Source: Nitrospira sp.
GTDB lineage: Bacteria; Nitrospirota; Nitrospiria; Nitrospirales; Nitrospiraceae
Assembly: GCA_005116835.1 (NCBI GenBank)
Contig: SWDM01000013.1
Span: forward strand, 124,001 to 188,000
DNA: 64,000 bases
Reading direction: 5' to 3'
Each line of letters opens with the position of its first letter. The stretch's first letter is position 1. The translations under genes and the position numbers were made by a program. The notes beneath the pieces were generated by a model. It was not told the DNA's origin. It ran no database searches and saw only the letters and a program-made list of their open reading frames with translations. Shown piece by piece: positions 4,329 through 33,250 of this stretch.

Positions 4329-4450
4329 CTCAAGTCGTCAAGTCGAAAGTCGTCAAGTCCAAAGTCATCAGGTCCAAAGTCTTCAAGTCTCGACGAGAAA
4401 TCAGACATTCGACTTTGCAGACTTGAAGACTTGACGACTTTACGACCTTC
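4329..4450. repeat. Word-repeat hairpin, AAGTCGTCAAGTC family (copy C1)
   Basis: About six tandem variants of the word AAGTC(G/C)(T/A)(C/A)AAGTC on the left arm, with inverse words (GACTTGAAGACTTGACGACTT) on the right arm and an unrelated loop. It fills the glmS-gatC gap. The next members of this family lie at 26755-26860 and 27236-27300. Confidence 0.75.
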
Positions 4451-4457
4451 TGATTCA

Positions 4458-20132: not shown

Positions 20133-21191
20133 ATGCAGAGACCACTCGATAACCAACATATCATTGAGATCAAGCCGCTCCCCTCTCCGCGAACGATCAA
20201 GTCAAAACTGCCGATTACCGATCAAGCAGCAGCGCTGGTCGTTGAAACCAGGGATGCCGTTCGCCACATTCTACACGGCCAAGACCGTGACCGCTTACTG
20301 GTGATCGTCGGCCCCTGCTCCATTCATGACCCCGAAGCTGCCTACGAGTATGCCGACCGATTGAAACCAGTGGCGGATGCGTTGCGCGACCAGTTGCTTA
20401 TCGTCATGCGCACCTACTTTGAAAAGCCCCGCACCACAGTCGGATGGAAAGGACTGATCAACGATCCGCACCTGGACGGCACCTGCGATATCGCCACCGG
20501 CATGGAACTCGCGCGAACGATTCTTCTCAACATCAACAAACGCGGGGTTCCCTGCGCGGCAGAAGCCTTGGATCCGGTCTCCCCCCAATACATCGCCGAT
20601 CTCTGGAGTTGGGTCGCCATCGGCGCCCGCACCACCGAAAGCCAGCCGCACAGAGAAATGGCCAGCGGGCTCTCCATGCCGGTCGGGTTCAAGAACGGAA
20701 CAGAGGGTAATCTTCAGGTCGCCTGGAACGCTATGGTTGCGGCTAAACAAACTCATCATTTCCTCGGAGTCAATGCCGACGGGCTTACCTCTATCATCAA
20801 GACCATGGGCAACCCCGATCGCCATATCGTCCTGCGGGGGGGCGGCGGAAAAACCAACTATGAGGCTGAGCATGTGGCCCGCGCGGAAGCCCTTGTCGCG
20901 AGCGAAGGCATCGTTCGTCCTATCATGATCGACTGTTCACATGACAACTCCAGTAAAGATCACCGACGCCAGAGTGTGGTCGCCCGTGAAGTCATCCGCC
21001 AATTCCGCGAAGGCCGCCACTCCATCATGGGGCTGATGCTCGAAAGCAACCTCAACCCCGGCAAGCAGACCTGGGAGCAGGGGAAAACGCTGGCCCACGG
21101 TGTCTCCATCACCGATGCCTGTCTCGGGTGGGGTGAAACAGAGGCCCTGCTCGGCGAACTGGCCGGCATGATCGTCACGAAACCCATCTAA
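20133..21191 (+). CDS. aroG: 3-deoxy-7-phosphoheptulonate (DAHP) synthase, class I
   Basis: First enzyme of the shikimate pathway; it condenses phosphoenolpyruvate and erythrose-4-phosphate. The 352 residues match the AroFGH type: IVGPCSIHDP (about 58-67), MRTYFEKPRTTVGWKG, LINDPHLDG, VGFKNGT, GGGKTNY and CSHDNSSKDH. An AAAGG-type site lies about 8 bases before the ATG. Its feedback class (Phe, Tyr or Trp) cannot be decided from sequence. It stands alone and is followed at once by a hairpin repeat. Confidence 0.95.
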   Translation: MQRPLDNQHIIEIKPLPSPRTIKSKLPITDQAAALVVETRDAVRHILHGQDRDRLLVIVGPCSIHDPEAAYEYADRLKPVADALRDQLLIVMRTYFEKPRTTVGWKGLINDPHLDGTCDIATGMELARTILLNINKRGVPCAAEALDPVSPQYIADLWSWVAIGARTTESQPHREMASGLSMPVGFKNGTEGNLQVAWNAMVAAKQTHHFLGVNADGLTSIIKTMGNPDRHIVLRGGGGKTNYEAEHVARAEALVASEGIVRPIMIDCSHDNSSKDHRRQSVVAREVIRQFREGRHSIMGLMLESNLNPGKQTWEQGKTLAHGVSITDACLGWGETEALLGELAGMIVTKPI

Positions 21192-21274
21192 CTGGTTGTT
21201 TGGTTCATTTGGTTTGTTTGGTTTATTTGGTTCGTTTCGTTCAACCAAATAAACCAAACAGACCAAACAAACCA
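21191..21274 (+). repeat. Word-repeat hairpin, GGTTTGTTTGG family (A2)
   Basis: Left arm repeats GGTTTGTTTGGTTTATTTGG, right arm is its inverse (CCAAATAAACCAAACAGACC), with loop TTCGTTTCGTTCAAC. The loop TTYCGTTCRAC recurs in A4, A5 and A7. The repeat begins at the aroG stop and ends beside the tatD start, so it may terminate aroG transcription. Confidence 0.8.
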
Positions 21275-21276
21275 GT

Positions 21277-22679: not shown

Positions 22680-22759
22680 TTTATCAAGCTTTCTTCGGAC
22701 CCTACTGGCTCACACCGCTATCTGTCAATCGGCGCACGACAAGCGAGCGGAACGGGTTA

Positions 22760-22833
22760 CTCTGGTTTGTTTGGTTCAGTTGGTTCATCTGGTTAGTTTC
22801 GTTCGACCAAATAAACAAAACAAACCAGAGCAA
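22760..22833 (+). repeat. Word-repeat hairpin (A4)
   Basis: Left arm TCTGGTTTGTTTGGTTCAG, right arm CCAAATAAACAAAACAAACC, with conserved loop AGTTTCGTTCGAC. Same orientation as A2. Confidence 0.75.
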
Positions 22834-22893
22834 CTACGGCAACCAGTATGGCCATTCCACTTGACAACGGCGCATACATCTGAGAAAAACCTC

Positions 22894-25991: not shown

Positions 25992-26094
25992 CTTGTTCAT
26001 TTGGTCTATTGGTTTGTTTTGTTCATTTGGTTGAATCGGACTAATCGGAGAAACCAGATCAACCAAATGAACAAAACAAACCAAACAAACCAGT
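25992..26094. repeat. Word-repeat hairpin (A6)
   Basis: Left arm TTGGTTTGTTTTGTTCATTTGG, right arm CCAAATGAACAAAACAAACC, with a loop diverged to GAATCGGACTAATCGGAG. It lies between convergent PsiF and cysE and could terminate both. Confidence 0.75.
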
Positions 26095-26097
26095 TTT

Positions 26098-26748
26098 CTA
26101 GAGCAGGCGGGGGGGATCCTGGTTTTCCAGTTTCTTCCGAAGTTCGATCAGTTCCTGTTCAAGGGAAAAAAGCCGATCGTGGACTGGGTCAGGCATGTTG
26201 CTATGGTCCATGGTGGCGTCTGGTAATCGCTCGCCTTGAGTCTTGATGACGCGGGCCGGCACTCCAATGACGGTGGAGTTGGCGGCGACATTCTTCAGCA
26301 CCACCGAATTGGCGCCGATCTTCACATTGTCGCCGATGGTGATCCCGCCAAGAATCTTGGCGCCGGCCCCGACGACGACGTGATTGCCGAGCGTGGGATG
26401 GCGTTTCCCTCGCTCCTTCCCCGTGCCCCCAAGCGTCACACCCTGAAAGAGGGTGACGAAATCTCCGATCTCTGCCGTCTCGCCGATCACGACACCCATT
26501 CCATGATCGATGAAGAACCCAATGCCGATCTTCGCCGAGGGATGAATCTCAATCCCTGTCAACACACGGGCCACTTGAGAAATGGCGCGGGGGATGAAGG
26601 GGACATGTCGAACCTTGAGCCAGTGGGACAGGCGATAGGCCAACATGGCATGAAAACCTGCATAGGTCAGCACGACCTCATACCAGCTCGTAGCAGCTGG
26701 ATCTCGATCGAACACGGCCCGCAAATCTGATTTAATGGCTTTAAACAT
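26098..26748 (-). CDS. cysE: Serine O-acetyltransferase
   Basis: Acetylates serine to O-acetylserine for cysteine synthesis. The 216-residue short form has a brief alpha-helical N-domain (about 1-60), then a left-handed beta-helix with hexapeptide repeats. Catalytic-site motifs are [17 protein letters not shown] and [17 protein letters not shown]. The C-terminal tail is helical and charged ([16 protein letters not shown]). The final codons reach the A6 repeat. Upstream is a word repeat of the AAGTC family. Confidence 0.92.
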
Positions 26749-26754
26749 AGCGTC

Positions 26755-26860
26755 AAAATGTCGTCAAGTCATAAAGTCATCAAGTCGAAAGCCTTCAAGT
26801 CGTAATGTCGGAAAGTCGTCAAGTCATAACGTCATCAGGTCGAAAGTCACAAGTCCTCAC
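26755..26860. repeat. AAGTC word repeat, left arm (C2)
   Basis: Tandem words such as GTCGTCAAGTCATAAAGTCATC and AAGTCGAAAGCC. The inverse arm is on the other side of the four-helix-bundle gene (27236-27300), so that gene sits inside the repeat as its loop. Confidence 0.7.
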
Positions 26861-27231
26861 AGCGGATCCTTCGAAGCTAAATAGGTTATAAACCCGGACA
26901 ACGACCTCGCAACCTCTTCGGATTTTGTCCGAAGATCAGAAAACTCCTCGTCAGAGATATACCCCAAGTCCAGTGCGACGAACAGATGACTGCGGACTTC
27001 CCCTGCCGAGCCTTTCGCGATGTACAGAAACCGGTGAAACTCCCTGTCGGAACCTCGTTCAAAACCTTCCGCGATATTGGCCATTACAGAAACTGATGCT
27101 CGCTGAATCTGATCACGGAGGCCAAAATCCTTCTCGAATTTCCCTCTCCCACTGACACGATAGACAGCTGAAACCAGTTCCCTTGCTGCTTGCCAAGATT
27201 TGATATCCTCAAATCGCTCTATCGTAGCCAA
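26857..27231 (-). CDS. Four-helix-bundle protein (23S rRNA intervening-sequence type)
   Basis: A 124-residue protein of the S23/IVP-like four-helix-bundle family. Family features are FEDIKSWQAARELVSAVYR, FGLRDQIQRASVSVMANIAEGFERG, FHRFLYIAKGSAGEVRSHLFVALDLGYI (residue positions about 7, 36 and 66) and a closing helix. In some bacteria homologues are encoded inside 23S rRNA intervening sequences; here the gene is free-standing. Its role is unknown. It is flanked on both sides by inverted AAGTC word repeats and its start overlaps none of the neighbouring genes. Confidence 0.85.
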   Translation of the reverse strand: MATIERFEDIKSWQAARELVSAVYRVSGRGKFEKDFGLRDQIQRASVSVMANIAEGFERGSDREFHRFLYIAKGSAGEVRSHLFVALDLGYISDEEFSDLRTKSEEVARSLSGFITYLASKDPL

Positions 27232-27235
27232 TATT

Positions 27236-27300
27236 CACTCTTCAACTTGATGACCTGACGACTTGATGACTTTCCGGCTTTATGACATTCCGACTTTCAG
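27236..27300. repeat. AAGTC word repeat, right arm (C3)
   Basis: Words AACTTGATGACCTGACGACTT and GACTTTCCGGCTTTATGAC are the inverse of those in C2. The last bases reach the stop of ispF at 27297. Confidence 0.7.
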
Positions 27301-27770
27301 ACCTTCTCAATCAAACACACTGCTTGCGCGGCGATCCCTTCTTCCCGGCCAATCATGCCGATTCCTTCTCCACTCTTGACCTTGACGTTGACGAGGTCCG
27401 GATCAATCCCGAGCACCTGCGCCATCTGCTGTTGCATCCCGGCCAGATACGAACTGAGCCGAGGAGCCTGCGCGATAATGACGGTGTCGACGTTGACGAT
27501 ACGATACCCCTTTCCCCGCAACTTCCCGACCACGTCCTCCAGCAGCTTCAGGCTTGAAATATCTTTGAACTTCTGATCGGAGCTGGGATAATGCCGGCCC
27601 AGATCCCCTTCGCCCATTGCTCCAAGCAGCGCATCGCAGAGGGCATGGACCAAGGCATCGGAATCGGAATGTCCCAACAAACCCTTGCTATGGGGCACCT
27701 CGATTCCGCCAAGAATCAGTTTCCGTCCTGCTCCCAGCGGATGGATGTCGTAGCCGCAACCGATTCGCAT
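27297..27770 (-). CDS. ispF: 2-C-methyl-D-erythritol 2,4-cyclodiphosphate synthase
   Basis: Fifth step of the MEP isoprenoid pathway. The 157 residues show GYDIHPL (residues 6-12, zinc Asp and His), LLGHSDSDALVHALCDALLGA (zinc His) and GDLGRHYPSSD. The conserved KVKSGEGIGMIGREEGIAAQA is the C-terminal substrate-site segment. It is separated from ispD upstream by a word repeat, although the two are often fused or overlapping in other bacteria. Confidence 0.95.
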   Translation of the reverse strand: MRIGCGYDIHPLGAGRKLILGGIEVPHSKGLLGHSDSDALVHALCDALLGAMGEGDLGRHYPSSDQKFKDISSLKLLEDVVGKLRGKGYRIVNVDTVIIAQAPRLSSYLAGMQQQMAQVLGIDPDLVNVKVKSGEGIGMIGREEGIAAQAVCLIEKV

Positions 27771-27784
27771 GCGCTTCGCTCCTC

Positions 27785-27875
27785 GTTATTCGTTAAACGT
27801 CAATCGTTAACCGTGGAAGAAGCCTAATCCTGTGAGACATATCGCATTTCGCGATTAACGTTGAACAATTCACGT
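27785..27875. repeat. Word-repeat hairpin, GTTAAACGT subtype (B4)
   Basis: CGTTAAACGTCAATCGTTAACCG faces CGATTAACGTTGAACAATTCACG and TTTAACG, around a short loop. It fills the ispD-ispF gap. Confidence 0.6.
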
Positions 27876-28568
27876 TTAACGCCCCTTCCGCGAAGCCAAG
27901 ATCGCTTCGCCGATCACCATGTCTTCAGGCCTCGTTACCTTGATATTCTCCCCGCTTCCCTCCACCACCGTGACTGAATATCCCAGCCACTCGACCAGAA
28001 AGGCGTCATCGGTAGCTCGAATCCCTTCGGCATGCGCTTTCTCGTGGGCCATCTCAATCCAGTCCCGTCGAAAGGCCTGCGGAGTTTGAGCCAGCCACAA
28101 GGGAGCGCGATCGACGGTTCGCTCGATTGTTCCATCGGTCCGTACCTGCTTCACAGTGTCCCGCATCGGAAGCGCGATAATTGCCGCGCCCTCTTTTCTC
28201 GCCGCAGCCACAACCTCGGCAATCATCCCGATAGTCATAAATGGACGGACTGCGTCATGGATGATGACGATCTCTGTGTCTGAGGGAACCTGCGCAAGCG
28301 CGTGCCTCACTGAGTCCTGGCGCTCGGCGCCGCCCGCCACGACCTTTGTAACCTTGGTGAAACGATGCCGCGAGACGATCTCCTTCTCGCAATAGTCGAT
28401 ATCGGCAGACGGAACGGCAAGAATAATCTGGTCGACTACGGAAGCGGCTTGCAAGGTTCGCAACGACTGAACGATCAGCGGCTCACCGCCCAACGATAGA
28501 AATTGCTTGGGAACGGAGCCGCCCATCCGAAGCCCGCGGCCGGCTGCAGGCACGAGCGCCACCACCAA
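27876..28568 (-). CDS. ispD: 2-C-methyl-D-erythritol 4-phosphate cytidylyltransferase
   Basis: Third step of the MEP pathway, forming CDP-ME. The 230 residues begin VALVPAAGRGLRMGGSVPKQ, the CTP-binding signature. HDAVRPF and RATDDAFLVEW are the later conserved motifs, and the length is typical. It starts just inside a word-repeat hairpin (28582-28658) that separates it from the HtrA gene. Confidence 0.95.
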   Translation of the reverse strand: MVVALVPAAGRGLRMGGSVPKQFLSLGGEPLIVQSLRTLQAASVVDQIILAVPSADIDYCEKEIVSRHRFTKVTKVVAGGAERQDSVRHALAQVPSDTEIVIIHDAVRPFMTIGMIAEVVAAARKEGAAIIALPMRDTVKQVRTDGTIERTVDRAPLWLAQTPQAFRRDWIEMAHEKAHAEGIRATDDAFLVEWLGYSVTVVEGSGENIKVTRPEDMVIGEAILASRKGR

Positions 28569-28581
28569 AGGAGCCTCCTCA

Positions 28582-28658
28582 CTTGTTTATTTGGTTTGTT
28601 TAGTTTGTTTAGTTGAACGAAACTAACCAGATGAACCAAATCAACCAAACAAACCAGC
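28582..28658 (-). repeat. Word-repeat hairpin (A7)
   Basis: TTGTTTATTTGGTTTGTTTAG on the left; CCAAATCAACCAAACAAACC on the right. On the minus strand the loop reads AGTTTCGTTCAAC, the conserved form. Confidence 0.75.
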
Positions 28659-28676
28659 TTATTCTTCCGCAACCAG

Positions 28677-31182: not shown

Positions 31183-31204
31183 GTCTCTCCTCCCCTGGAT
31201 TCAT

Positions 31205-31303
31205 TGAACGTTAAACGTGAGACGTGAAAAGTGAAAAGTGAAATGTCAAAAACCTGACCGTGCTCCCCTTCATTTCACGTTTTACCTTTCACGTTTCACG
31301 ACG
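31205..31303. repeat. Word-repeat hairpin, GTGAAACGT family (B5)
   Basis: Left arm GTTAAACGTGAGACGTGAAAAG with GTGAAAAGTGAAATG; right arm CATTTCACGTTTTACC and CTTTCACGTTTCACG. The loop (GTGCTCCCCTTC) resembles that of B1 read in reverse complement. Confidence 0.75.
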
Positions 31304-32367: not shown

Positions 32368-33174
32368 TTACCGGGCCGGTGCCTCAGCCGGCAATCCGCT
32401 GACGAGATCGGCCACAATCGACCCGATGATGACCTTGGCCTTCATGCGAACCGGAATACGCCGATCGTCGTTCGTAAACCAGACCCGGATGTTGCCTTGG
32501 TTGAGGAAGAGCCCTTGGAACGGCATGACGACCAACACACGAGCCGTTTCAACCTCCCCCCACGGACCGCTGACCGTTTCGATCTCCTCCACATGTACTT
32601 CGAGCTTGCGATTCTTTTTATCATGATAGACGTTCATCGTCATGGTTGCGCCTGGCTGTAGCGGCAACATGCTGCGAGCAAAATAGAGGCAGGAGATGAC
32701 ATCCTGGGTGCCAGGCGGGATCTCCGATGTTTCAGTCACCCCATCTTTGACAGCCGTGACCGTCCCCTCTTTATGATGGAACCTGTACTCGATATCTTCC
32801 TTCTTCTTCCCTTCACGCCGCTTGAAAGTCAGATGCTCCGGAAGCAGCGTAGCAGGATCTACGATCGACTCAACCCAGTTATCCACGGGGAAAAACTTGG
32901 TGATGGCAGGCCTCGACTGGGCCGTGGTAATCAATTTTGCCAGCGGCCGCTCTCCATCCATGCCGGCACCGTTGATCGTCATCACAGCTGTGCCGGCTGT
33001 GATATAGAGCCAGGAAATGTCGTAGGTAAGTTGTTCGCCGACTTGGAAGGATCGGGTTGAGGGTGGATTATCCCCGGGCTCCGCCCATGAGACCGAGCCA
33101 TTCACTGCACCCAAGATCAGGCAGGCCAGAACGAGCCAGGCACGGAACTGGTTTGTTTTGTTTATTTGGTTCAT
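32368..33174 (-). CDS. DUF3108 periplasmic/outer-membrane beta-barrel-like protein
   Basis: A 268-residue protein with a signal peptide (hydrophobic 11-31, likely cut after SWA). It matches DUF3108: FQVGEQLTYDISWLYITAG, DNWVESIVDP and FLNQGNIRVWFTNDDRRIPVRM are typical. The function of the family is unknown. The first ten codons (MNQINKTNQF) are supplied by the word-repeat at 33148-33174, so its start codon lies inside a repeat. This makes the true start uncertain; no other in-frame ATG lies before the hydrophobic segment. Confidence 0.82.
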   Translation of the reverse strand: MNQINKTNQFRAWLVLACLILGAVNGSVSWAEPGDNPPSTRSFQVGEQLTYDISWLYITAGTAVMTINGAGMDGERPLAKLITTAQSRPAITKFFPVDNWVESIVDPATLLPEHLTFKRREGKKKEDIEYRFHHKEGTVTAVKDGVTETSEIPPGTQDVISCLYFARSMLPLQPGATMTMNVYHDKKNRKLEVHVEEIETVSGPWGEVETARVLVVMPFQGLFLNQGNIRVWFTNDDRRIPVRMKAKVIIGSIVADLVSGLPAEAPAR

Positions 33175-33250
33175 TTGGTTTGTTTGGTTTAACTAAATAA
33201 ACAAGAAAAACCAAATAAACGAGACAGACCGAACAGACCAAATGAGCCAG
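33148..33250. repeat. Word-repeat hairpin (A8)
   Basis: CTGGTTTGTTTTGTTTATTTGG and TTTGGTTTGTTTGG face AAACCAAATAAACGAGAC and CCAAATGAGCC. It overlaps the start of the DUF3108 gene and reaches within a few bases of the next upstream gene's stop. Confidence 0.75.

Follow-up and report, generated by a model that had tools for sequence, protein, structure and literature searches.

An S23 four-helix-bundle gene within inverted heptad word arrays of Nitrospira, a probable copy of a mobile hairpin element

Degenerate tandem repeats of 7-nt words are known from cyanobacteria as STRRs. REP/REPIN–RAYT systems pair a protein family with a cognate family of hairpin repeats, the gene-less copies of which outnumber the gene-bearing ones; RAYT is a Y1 transposase, and REPs carry a conserved tag. 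Structures have been solved for the S23 protein family, which has a great number of database entries and an unsettled function. According to the available parts of the report on Coxiella (PMC4990558), the S23 ORF in the 23S rRNA intervening sequence (IVS) is directly preceded by tandem GACAGAT heptamers, the number of which varies between strains; rRNA IVSs replace the tetraloops of helices 9, 25 and 45 and are cut by RNase III, and the Coxiella S23 is probably not translated. The same parts describe the Coxiella IVS as a selfish element and cite an earlier idea that the IVS is a mobile element with an ORF serving mobility; the movement of rRNA IVSs has been a puzzle for decades. Heptameric repeats are abundant in bacteria and have so far been described genus by genus. 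The parts of PMC4692102 used here report GGGAATC repeats in Xanthomonas (two xanthomonad species have 70 and 75 inverted pairs) and, for Nostoc, GGGGA(C/T)T; a text search of that paper finds ‘S23’ nowhere. Class 3 heptad hairpins of Geobacter metallireducens are called regulator sites in the accessible part of PMC2700814. Finally, Avd of diversity-generating retroelements (DGRs) works with a reverse transcriptase, as stated in the part of PMC10053308 consulted (structures 4dwl and 8ub7). Among the papers listed by a literature search, with subscription journals mostly outside its reach, none connects S23 genes with heptad hairpins elsewhere than in rRNA in its title or displayed abstract.

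In the window, i.e. the whole 64,000-nt stretch of Nitrospira sp. DNA analysed here, the first-pass annotation had seen a complete gene of the 23S intervening-sequence protein (23S-IVP) family enclosed by two arms that are inverse word repeats of one family. Both statements are borne out (Table 1). The gene product matches PF05635 (8.1e-37, 126.1 bits, curated cut-off 33.8) and TIGR02436 (6e-35, 119.8 bits, cut-off 24) in profile searches. The arms are inverted arrays of degenerate 7/8-nt GTC words, with an arm score of 23.5; their best pairing, 26787–26844 against 27241–27298, spans 58 nt at 76% complementarity, and five more overlapping pairings join them. Only the arm limits needed correction, since the arms reach about 26746 and 27302. 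The S23 ORF is thus enclosed by complementary termini, as IVS membership requires, but the site is ispF–cysE and not the inside of an rRNA gene, unlike an IVS. All three genes, ispF, S23 and cysE, lie on the minus strand, and at the filled window site the ispF stop codon is supplied by the outermost word of the arm (GTC TGA AAGTC). The TTG start of the S23 gene has an ATG at the equivalent position in locus L052. In the predicted RNA fold of the whole 571-nt element the arms close the gene (z −3.64, 0/100 shuffles as good). The further claim that C1 is the same repeat with a short loop also holds: C1 is a gene-less hairpin of GTC words with a fold z of −4.66.

Table 1. Coordinates of the S23 element and of gene-less word hairpins in the window
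Feature	Position	Strand	Remarks
Whole S23-bearing hairpin element	26746..27302	minus	between ispF and cysE; arms + loop; empty orthologous sites
S23 / 23S-IVP four-helix-bundle gene	26857..27231	minus	124 aa, TTG start; PF05635, TIGR02436
Upstream arm (gene sense)	27241..27302		GTC words; outermost word contains ispF stop codon
Downstream arm	26746..26850		GTC words in inverted orientation, spaced by 8 nt or by a 7/8-nt mixture
C1, gene-less short-loop hairpin	4329..4452		same GTC word family as S23 element; included in the GTC copy count
Other gene-less word hairpin/array	22756-22834		
Other gene-less word hairpin/array	26000-26092		TTTGGT
Other gene-less word hairpin/array	27791-27881		
Other gene-less word hairpin/array	28600-28665		
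Other gene-less word hairpin/array	31196-31300		
Other gene-less word hairpin/array	33143-33249		

We asked how general this arrangement is by local alignment of one flank of each S23 gene with the reverse complement of the other (arm score). Inverted word arrays flank 10 out of 10 PF05635 matches in the window genome (scores 16.5–34.5), and the vocabularies are all different, about ten in all, including AGCNNTC, AAGTC, GGGGTAA, AGTGCTG, GGCTGAA, AGTGGTG, TTTGGTTTG, GTTCTGA, CGTCATT and GGCGATCT. The GTC family described in the first-pass annotation is therefore real, but it is one of many word families. Across the genus, profile searches yielded 144 S23 matches in 28 of 32 genomes; 106 were placed in loci, and scores were computed for the 101 that have 250 nt or more of flank on both sides (L022, L027, L028, L090 and L118 were left out). 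The arm score is at least 14 in 84 of these 101 loci, compared with 0.9% of 2351 mismatched flank pairs, and at least 12 in 94 (null 5.8%), so that the proposed survey of other S23 genes in the genus came out positive. Direct, non-inverted flank similarity reaches 14 in 30/101 loci, partly because some elements lie in tandem or beside other hairpins. Among control ORFs from 464 kb of the window genome, 9 of 394 score at least 14; the window S23 gene is one of these nine, and the top-scoring others are located between two complete hairpins. Beyond the genus, 80 loci from many phyla were selected by the motif R[AS]AVSIP[SA]N in a genome-wide scan. Scores of at least 14 were obtained for 56 of the 78 usable loci (null 3.4%, n=2307), and 61 of the 78 beat 40 shuffles of their own flanks; a second draw, its loci partly overlapping the first, gave 22/30 (null 5.2%). 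Scores below 14 occur at 17/101 loci in the genus and at 22/78 in the cross-phylum sample, where some loci, e.g. L159, L189, L194 and L199, have no arms at all. Inverted arms are also present at 8 of 9 cyanobacterial plasmid S23 loci, hand-picked from 36 matching records and viewed without a null, and several of the plasmid elements are found between operon genes (nrdB–nrdA, cas6–cas4, cas10–cmr3). Of 282 arm sequences, 191 have 7 nt as their dominant lag. From the outer end inwards, the words are rich in G, with G > C in 118/141 elements; counted per cluster, G exceeds C in 109/132 and the opposite holds in 21, the figure outside the genus being 50/56.

Several individual loci deserve mention. 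Two S23 genes about 1 kb apart (L004 and L010, G000:C8:510944-512259) have different vocabularies. Three S23 elements (L319, L323, L326) lie within CRISPR operons; the cas6–cas4 insertions occur in two genera, L319 being annotated as type I-D, and the cas10–cmr3 insertion is in a type III-B operon. Insertions of this kind may have given rise, as an artefact, to the description of S23 as Cas-associated. PF05635 has 29 matches in the WOR-3 genome behind L161 (G042) and 10 in the 1.0-Mb Parcubacteria genome behind L184 (G052).

The AlphaFold model of the window S23 protein (pLDDT 94) has four helices, and its best PDB match is the Xanthomonas protein 2gsc (TM 0.85), followed by 2rld and, more weakly, by DGR Avd (4dwl). 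L202, a close homologue of XCC0516, a Xanthomonas protein of solved structure, sits inside GGGAATC arms. Estimates of omega are 0.05–0.10 in seven S23 clades, with many saturated pairs omitted in four of the seven, and 0.09 in the clade of the window gene. S23 is thus under strong purifying selection and maintained as a protein. It has no recognised catalytic domain, and the phage collection searched contained no S23 match.

On the S23 tree, clades track word vocabularies, many of the loci concerned being orthologous. We therefore counted word/protein pairing solely for S23 pairs in different locus clusters. Words are shared in 69% of such pairs at S23 distances below 0.3 (n=16), in 44% at 0.3–0.6 (n=18) and in 1–4% above 1. 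In the GGCTGAAGG clade, S23 and words are common to five locus clusters (7, 13, 15, 20 and 22), and for genus pairs with S23 distance below 0.6 tblastx detected no homology between the flanks. The overall rank correlation between protein and word similarity is modest (−0.12, against −0.09 for the most extreme of 500 permutations). Since close S23 proteins share words at unrelated loci, gene and arms have evidently changed place together in this genus, and S23 seems to be a cognate component belonging to the element itself. The earlier description of a ‘cargo-bearing version of the repeat’ is accordingly right about a gene-bearing repeat, and it is the word cargo that needs changing. Concerted evolution of the two arms within one element is not supported, within-element similarity being barely above that of orthologous arms and, for GGTCA, below it.

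Orthologous sites exist in several states. GTC-family S23 is found at 7 out of 28 ispF loci compared, some of them cut by contig ends or frameshifted; two further loci hold remnants (L043, L045), at two the S23 belongs to other branches and its words differ (L053, L058), and L048 has a GGCTGAAGG hairpin that lacks a gene. The remaining 13 are empty: 55–63 nt separate the ispF stop from a conserved cysE motif, and there is no hairpin (the tally leaves L046, L060 and L067 unread). The comparison of ispF–cysE orthologues proposed with the first annotation therefore supports the pairing, as S23 of the same clade keeps its GTC arms and other branches bring other words. At ispD–ispF, the word family differs among genomes, of which some have none, and three genomes have a hairpin nested within another hairpin's loop. 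Plasmids provide similar cases: the cas10–cmr3 element is present in a plasmid of Picosynechococcus PCC 7003 and absent in PCC 7002; the nrdB–nrdA element is present in N. edaphicum and absent in Calothrix NIES-4105; and an element beside a TraM-domain gene is present in Nostoc C052 and N. edaphicum, absent in C057 and represented by a gene-less hairpin of similar words in ATCC 53789. At these three filled/empty plasmid pairs no target-site duplication is evident by eye; in a fourth pair the other plasmid has unrelated sequence, and Anabaena 90 and Dolichospermum do not form a clean filled/empty pair at cas6–cas4. Taken together, site polymorphism strongly suggests that S23-hairpin elements are mobile, each single site fitting either insertion or precise loss.

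Arms without the gene are not random either. In 464 kb of the window genome we found 47 degenerate arrays; the 15 paired arrays are mostly short-loop hairpins: the loop is 10–43 nt in ten and 112 nt in one, the 396-nt loop is that of the window S23 element, and three loops of 663–819 nt proved on reading to be joins of neighbouring hairpins. The window itself has at least six other gene-less hairpins or arrays with three or more vocabularies, and at 21187-21276 a hairpin of TTTGGTTTG words exactly fills the space between the TAA of one gene and the ATG of the next. Rfam gave only sub-threshold matches, mostly microRNA-like and to a neighbouring hairpin; the plant and animal microRNA families matched by the TTTGGT hairpin (26001-26093) are clearly spurious. 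Gene-less and S23-bearing TTATGGC elements have the terminus AAGAGC...GCTCTT in common. In a directed one-arm-motif test, a CGTGAAGCGTATCTCG-like arm lies beside TTATGGC loci in hairpin orientation in 9/30 cases and in the wrong orientation in 1/30; a nested-flank score by outer alignment gave no signal in 9 extracted elements.

Whether gene-less copies follow their cognate S23 was assessed in the 32 genus genomes by one-sided rank tests, the p-values of which ignore phylogeny. Copy number follows S23 for TTATGGC (p=3.6e-5) and GGTCA (p=5e-4). The link for GTC (p=0.0025) becomes 0.53 after subtraction of 8 own-element matches, and that for CGTGAAG (p=0.027) becomes 0.13 when its own matches are subtracted. 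Genomes that carry the cognate S23 are not richer in AGCNNTC words (p=0.39), which counts against a trans-acting role of the protein. Gene-less copy number is therefore not a general proxy for cognate S23; trans action of the protein has support in some word families, clearly in two out of five, and none in others. GGGAATC has 67–486 matches in four carriers, Xanthomonas, Dokdonella, Luteimonas and Solimonas, which are mutually related and have one S23 match each, versus at most 16 in 26 other genomes.

These counts bear on the possibility that word hairpins are host repeats, such as terminators or nucleoid/supercoiling sites, generated by slippage, with S23 an unrelated passenger in the loop. 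Gene-less hairpins are indeed more numerous than S23 copies and nest in the loops of other hairpins, and AGCNNTC is abundant where its cognate S23 is absent, as in G022 (54 matches); the other S23-less genus genomes G001, G007 and G029 still have 28, 33 and 8 matches. However, a passenger would draw random word families, whereas related S23 genes carry the same words at unrelated loci, and the empty ispF–cysE sites are free of hairpins; we consider this explanation unlikely. An RNA-level unit, in which the stem is an RNase III site, binding of S23 to its own stem serves autoregulation or mRNA protection and mobility is incidental, agrees with the stable RNA stem, with the location of elements inside operons and with the cleavage of rRNA IVSs by RNase III described in the available text of PMC4990558. 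Yet it leaves unexplained the many gene-less hairpins, the link between word family and S23 in TTATGGC and GGTCA and the site polymorphism, and seems distinctly improbable.

Equally improbable is a REP/RAYT-like or retroelement system, in which a Y1 transposase or reverse transcriptase of the host moves the hairpins and S23 is an Avd-like helper. The structural match to Avd and a weak correlation of S23 and Y1 counts in genus genomes (rho 0.38, p=0.03) point towards it. The partner search covered two families, PF01797 (Y1 transposase) and PF00078 (RVT_1 reverse transcriptase). PF01797 has no match in 13 of 32 genus genomes, including G025–G027, which have these elements, and PF00078 has none in 24; the window genome has 4 PF00078 matches, all off the contig holding the window (C5), and there is no Y1 gene inside the window element. 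Nine genomes that have three or more S23 matches show neither family, and three of the nine (G025, G026 and G027) are 99% complete; we therefore rejected both enzymes as required partners. Chance or compositional artefact, to which the degenerate, low-complexity arms might lend themselves, is refuted by the mismatched-flank, cross-phylum and control-ORF nulls given above and by the total lack of arrays in first-order Markov sequence, against 47 in the real 464 kb, and has a negligible probability.

The anatomy, generality and joint inheritance of S23 elements are thus well supported, and the window locus is probably one copy of a mobile hairpin element composed of an inverted heptad array, an S23 gene and a second inverted array. 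The best reading is that S23 is the resident protein of a family of mobile hairpin elements, that gene-less hairpins are its MITE-like derivatives and that 23S IVSs are its rRNA-resident members. This points to a family of mobile DNA that is widespread yet has drawn little notice, the known rRNA insertions being one special case of it. As to mechanism, S23, a pentamer in a solved relative and similar to Avd in structure, might recognise its cognate words, whether single-stranded or folded into a hairpin, and promote copying of the element to new sites, along with that of gene-less hairpins from its own family; we regard this as about evenly balanced between right and wrong. Preferred targets would be single-stranded or loop positions, as the nesting of hairpins in hairpin loops, the tight stop–start fits and the IVSs at tetraloops suggest. 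Because S23 has no recognised catalytic domain, enzymes of host replication or repair would perform the chemistry. At the transcript level, RNase III could excise the element by way of its long stem, as has been published for rRNA IVSs, and operons would then tolerate the insertion. More tentatively, and with somewhat less confidence than doubt, we propose a bacteria-wide class of transposable elements whose sole protein is an Avd-like helical pentamer reading 7-nt words; it would include 23S rRNA IVSs, the cyanobacterial STRRs, GGGAATC arrays of Xanthomonas and the word hairpins of this genus, with S23 delivering the hairpin into single-stranded loops via host enzymes rather than a transposase. 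The model predicts that each S23 binds its own words. The location of S23 genes usually inside heptad hairpins, with vocabulary shared by close relatives, ties together three puzzles: the function of S23, the heptameric repeats and the movement of IVSs.

Compared with known systems, S23 has the same fold as DGR Avd, as judged by the structure match, and differs from DGRs in that those 24 genus genomes have no PF00078 match. As in REP/RAYT, a protein family is paired with cognate hairpin repeats, gene-less copies being in the majority; the differences are that S23 is a four-helix bundle and that the vocabulary varies between S23 element families. The heptads of Xanthomonas, Nostoc and Geobacter are likewise degenerate 7-nt tandem words, arranged as hairpins in Geobacter, whereas the roles proposed for them in the available parts of the two papers are G-quadruplex formation or regulator binding, with no S23 gene named there (PMC4692102, PMC2700814). 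The link to rRNA IVSs would follow from the published Coxiella data (PMC4990558, as far as its accessible text goes). When S23 neighbourhoods of the loci then sampled were searched with three conserved 23S strings (at most 2 mismatches), a single match was obtained, more than 1 kb from the S23 gene. According to the available text of PMC4990558, the IVSs of Coxiella, Leptospira and Brucella have an S23 ORF in the loop of a terminal-inverted-repeat stem, like the present elements, but they lie within rRNA genes and are excised from rRNA, whereas the present elements lie between protein genes and have many word families, gene-less relatives and an intact S23 under selection.
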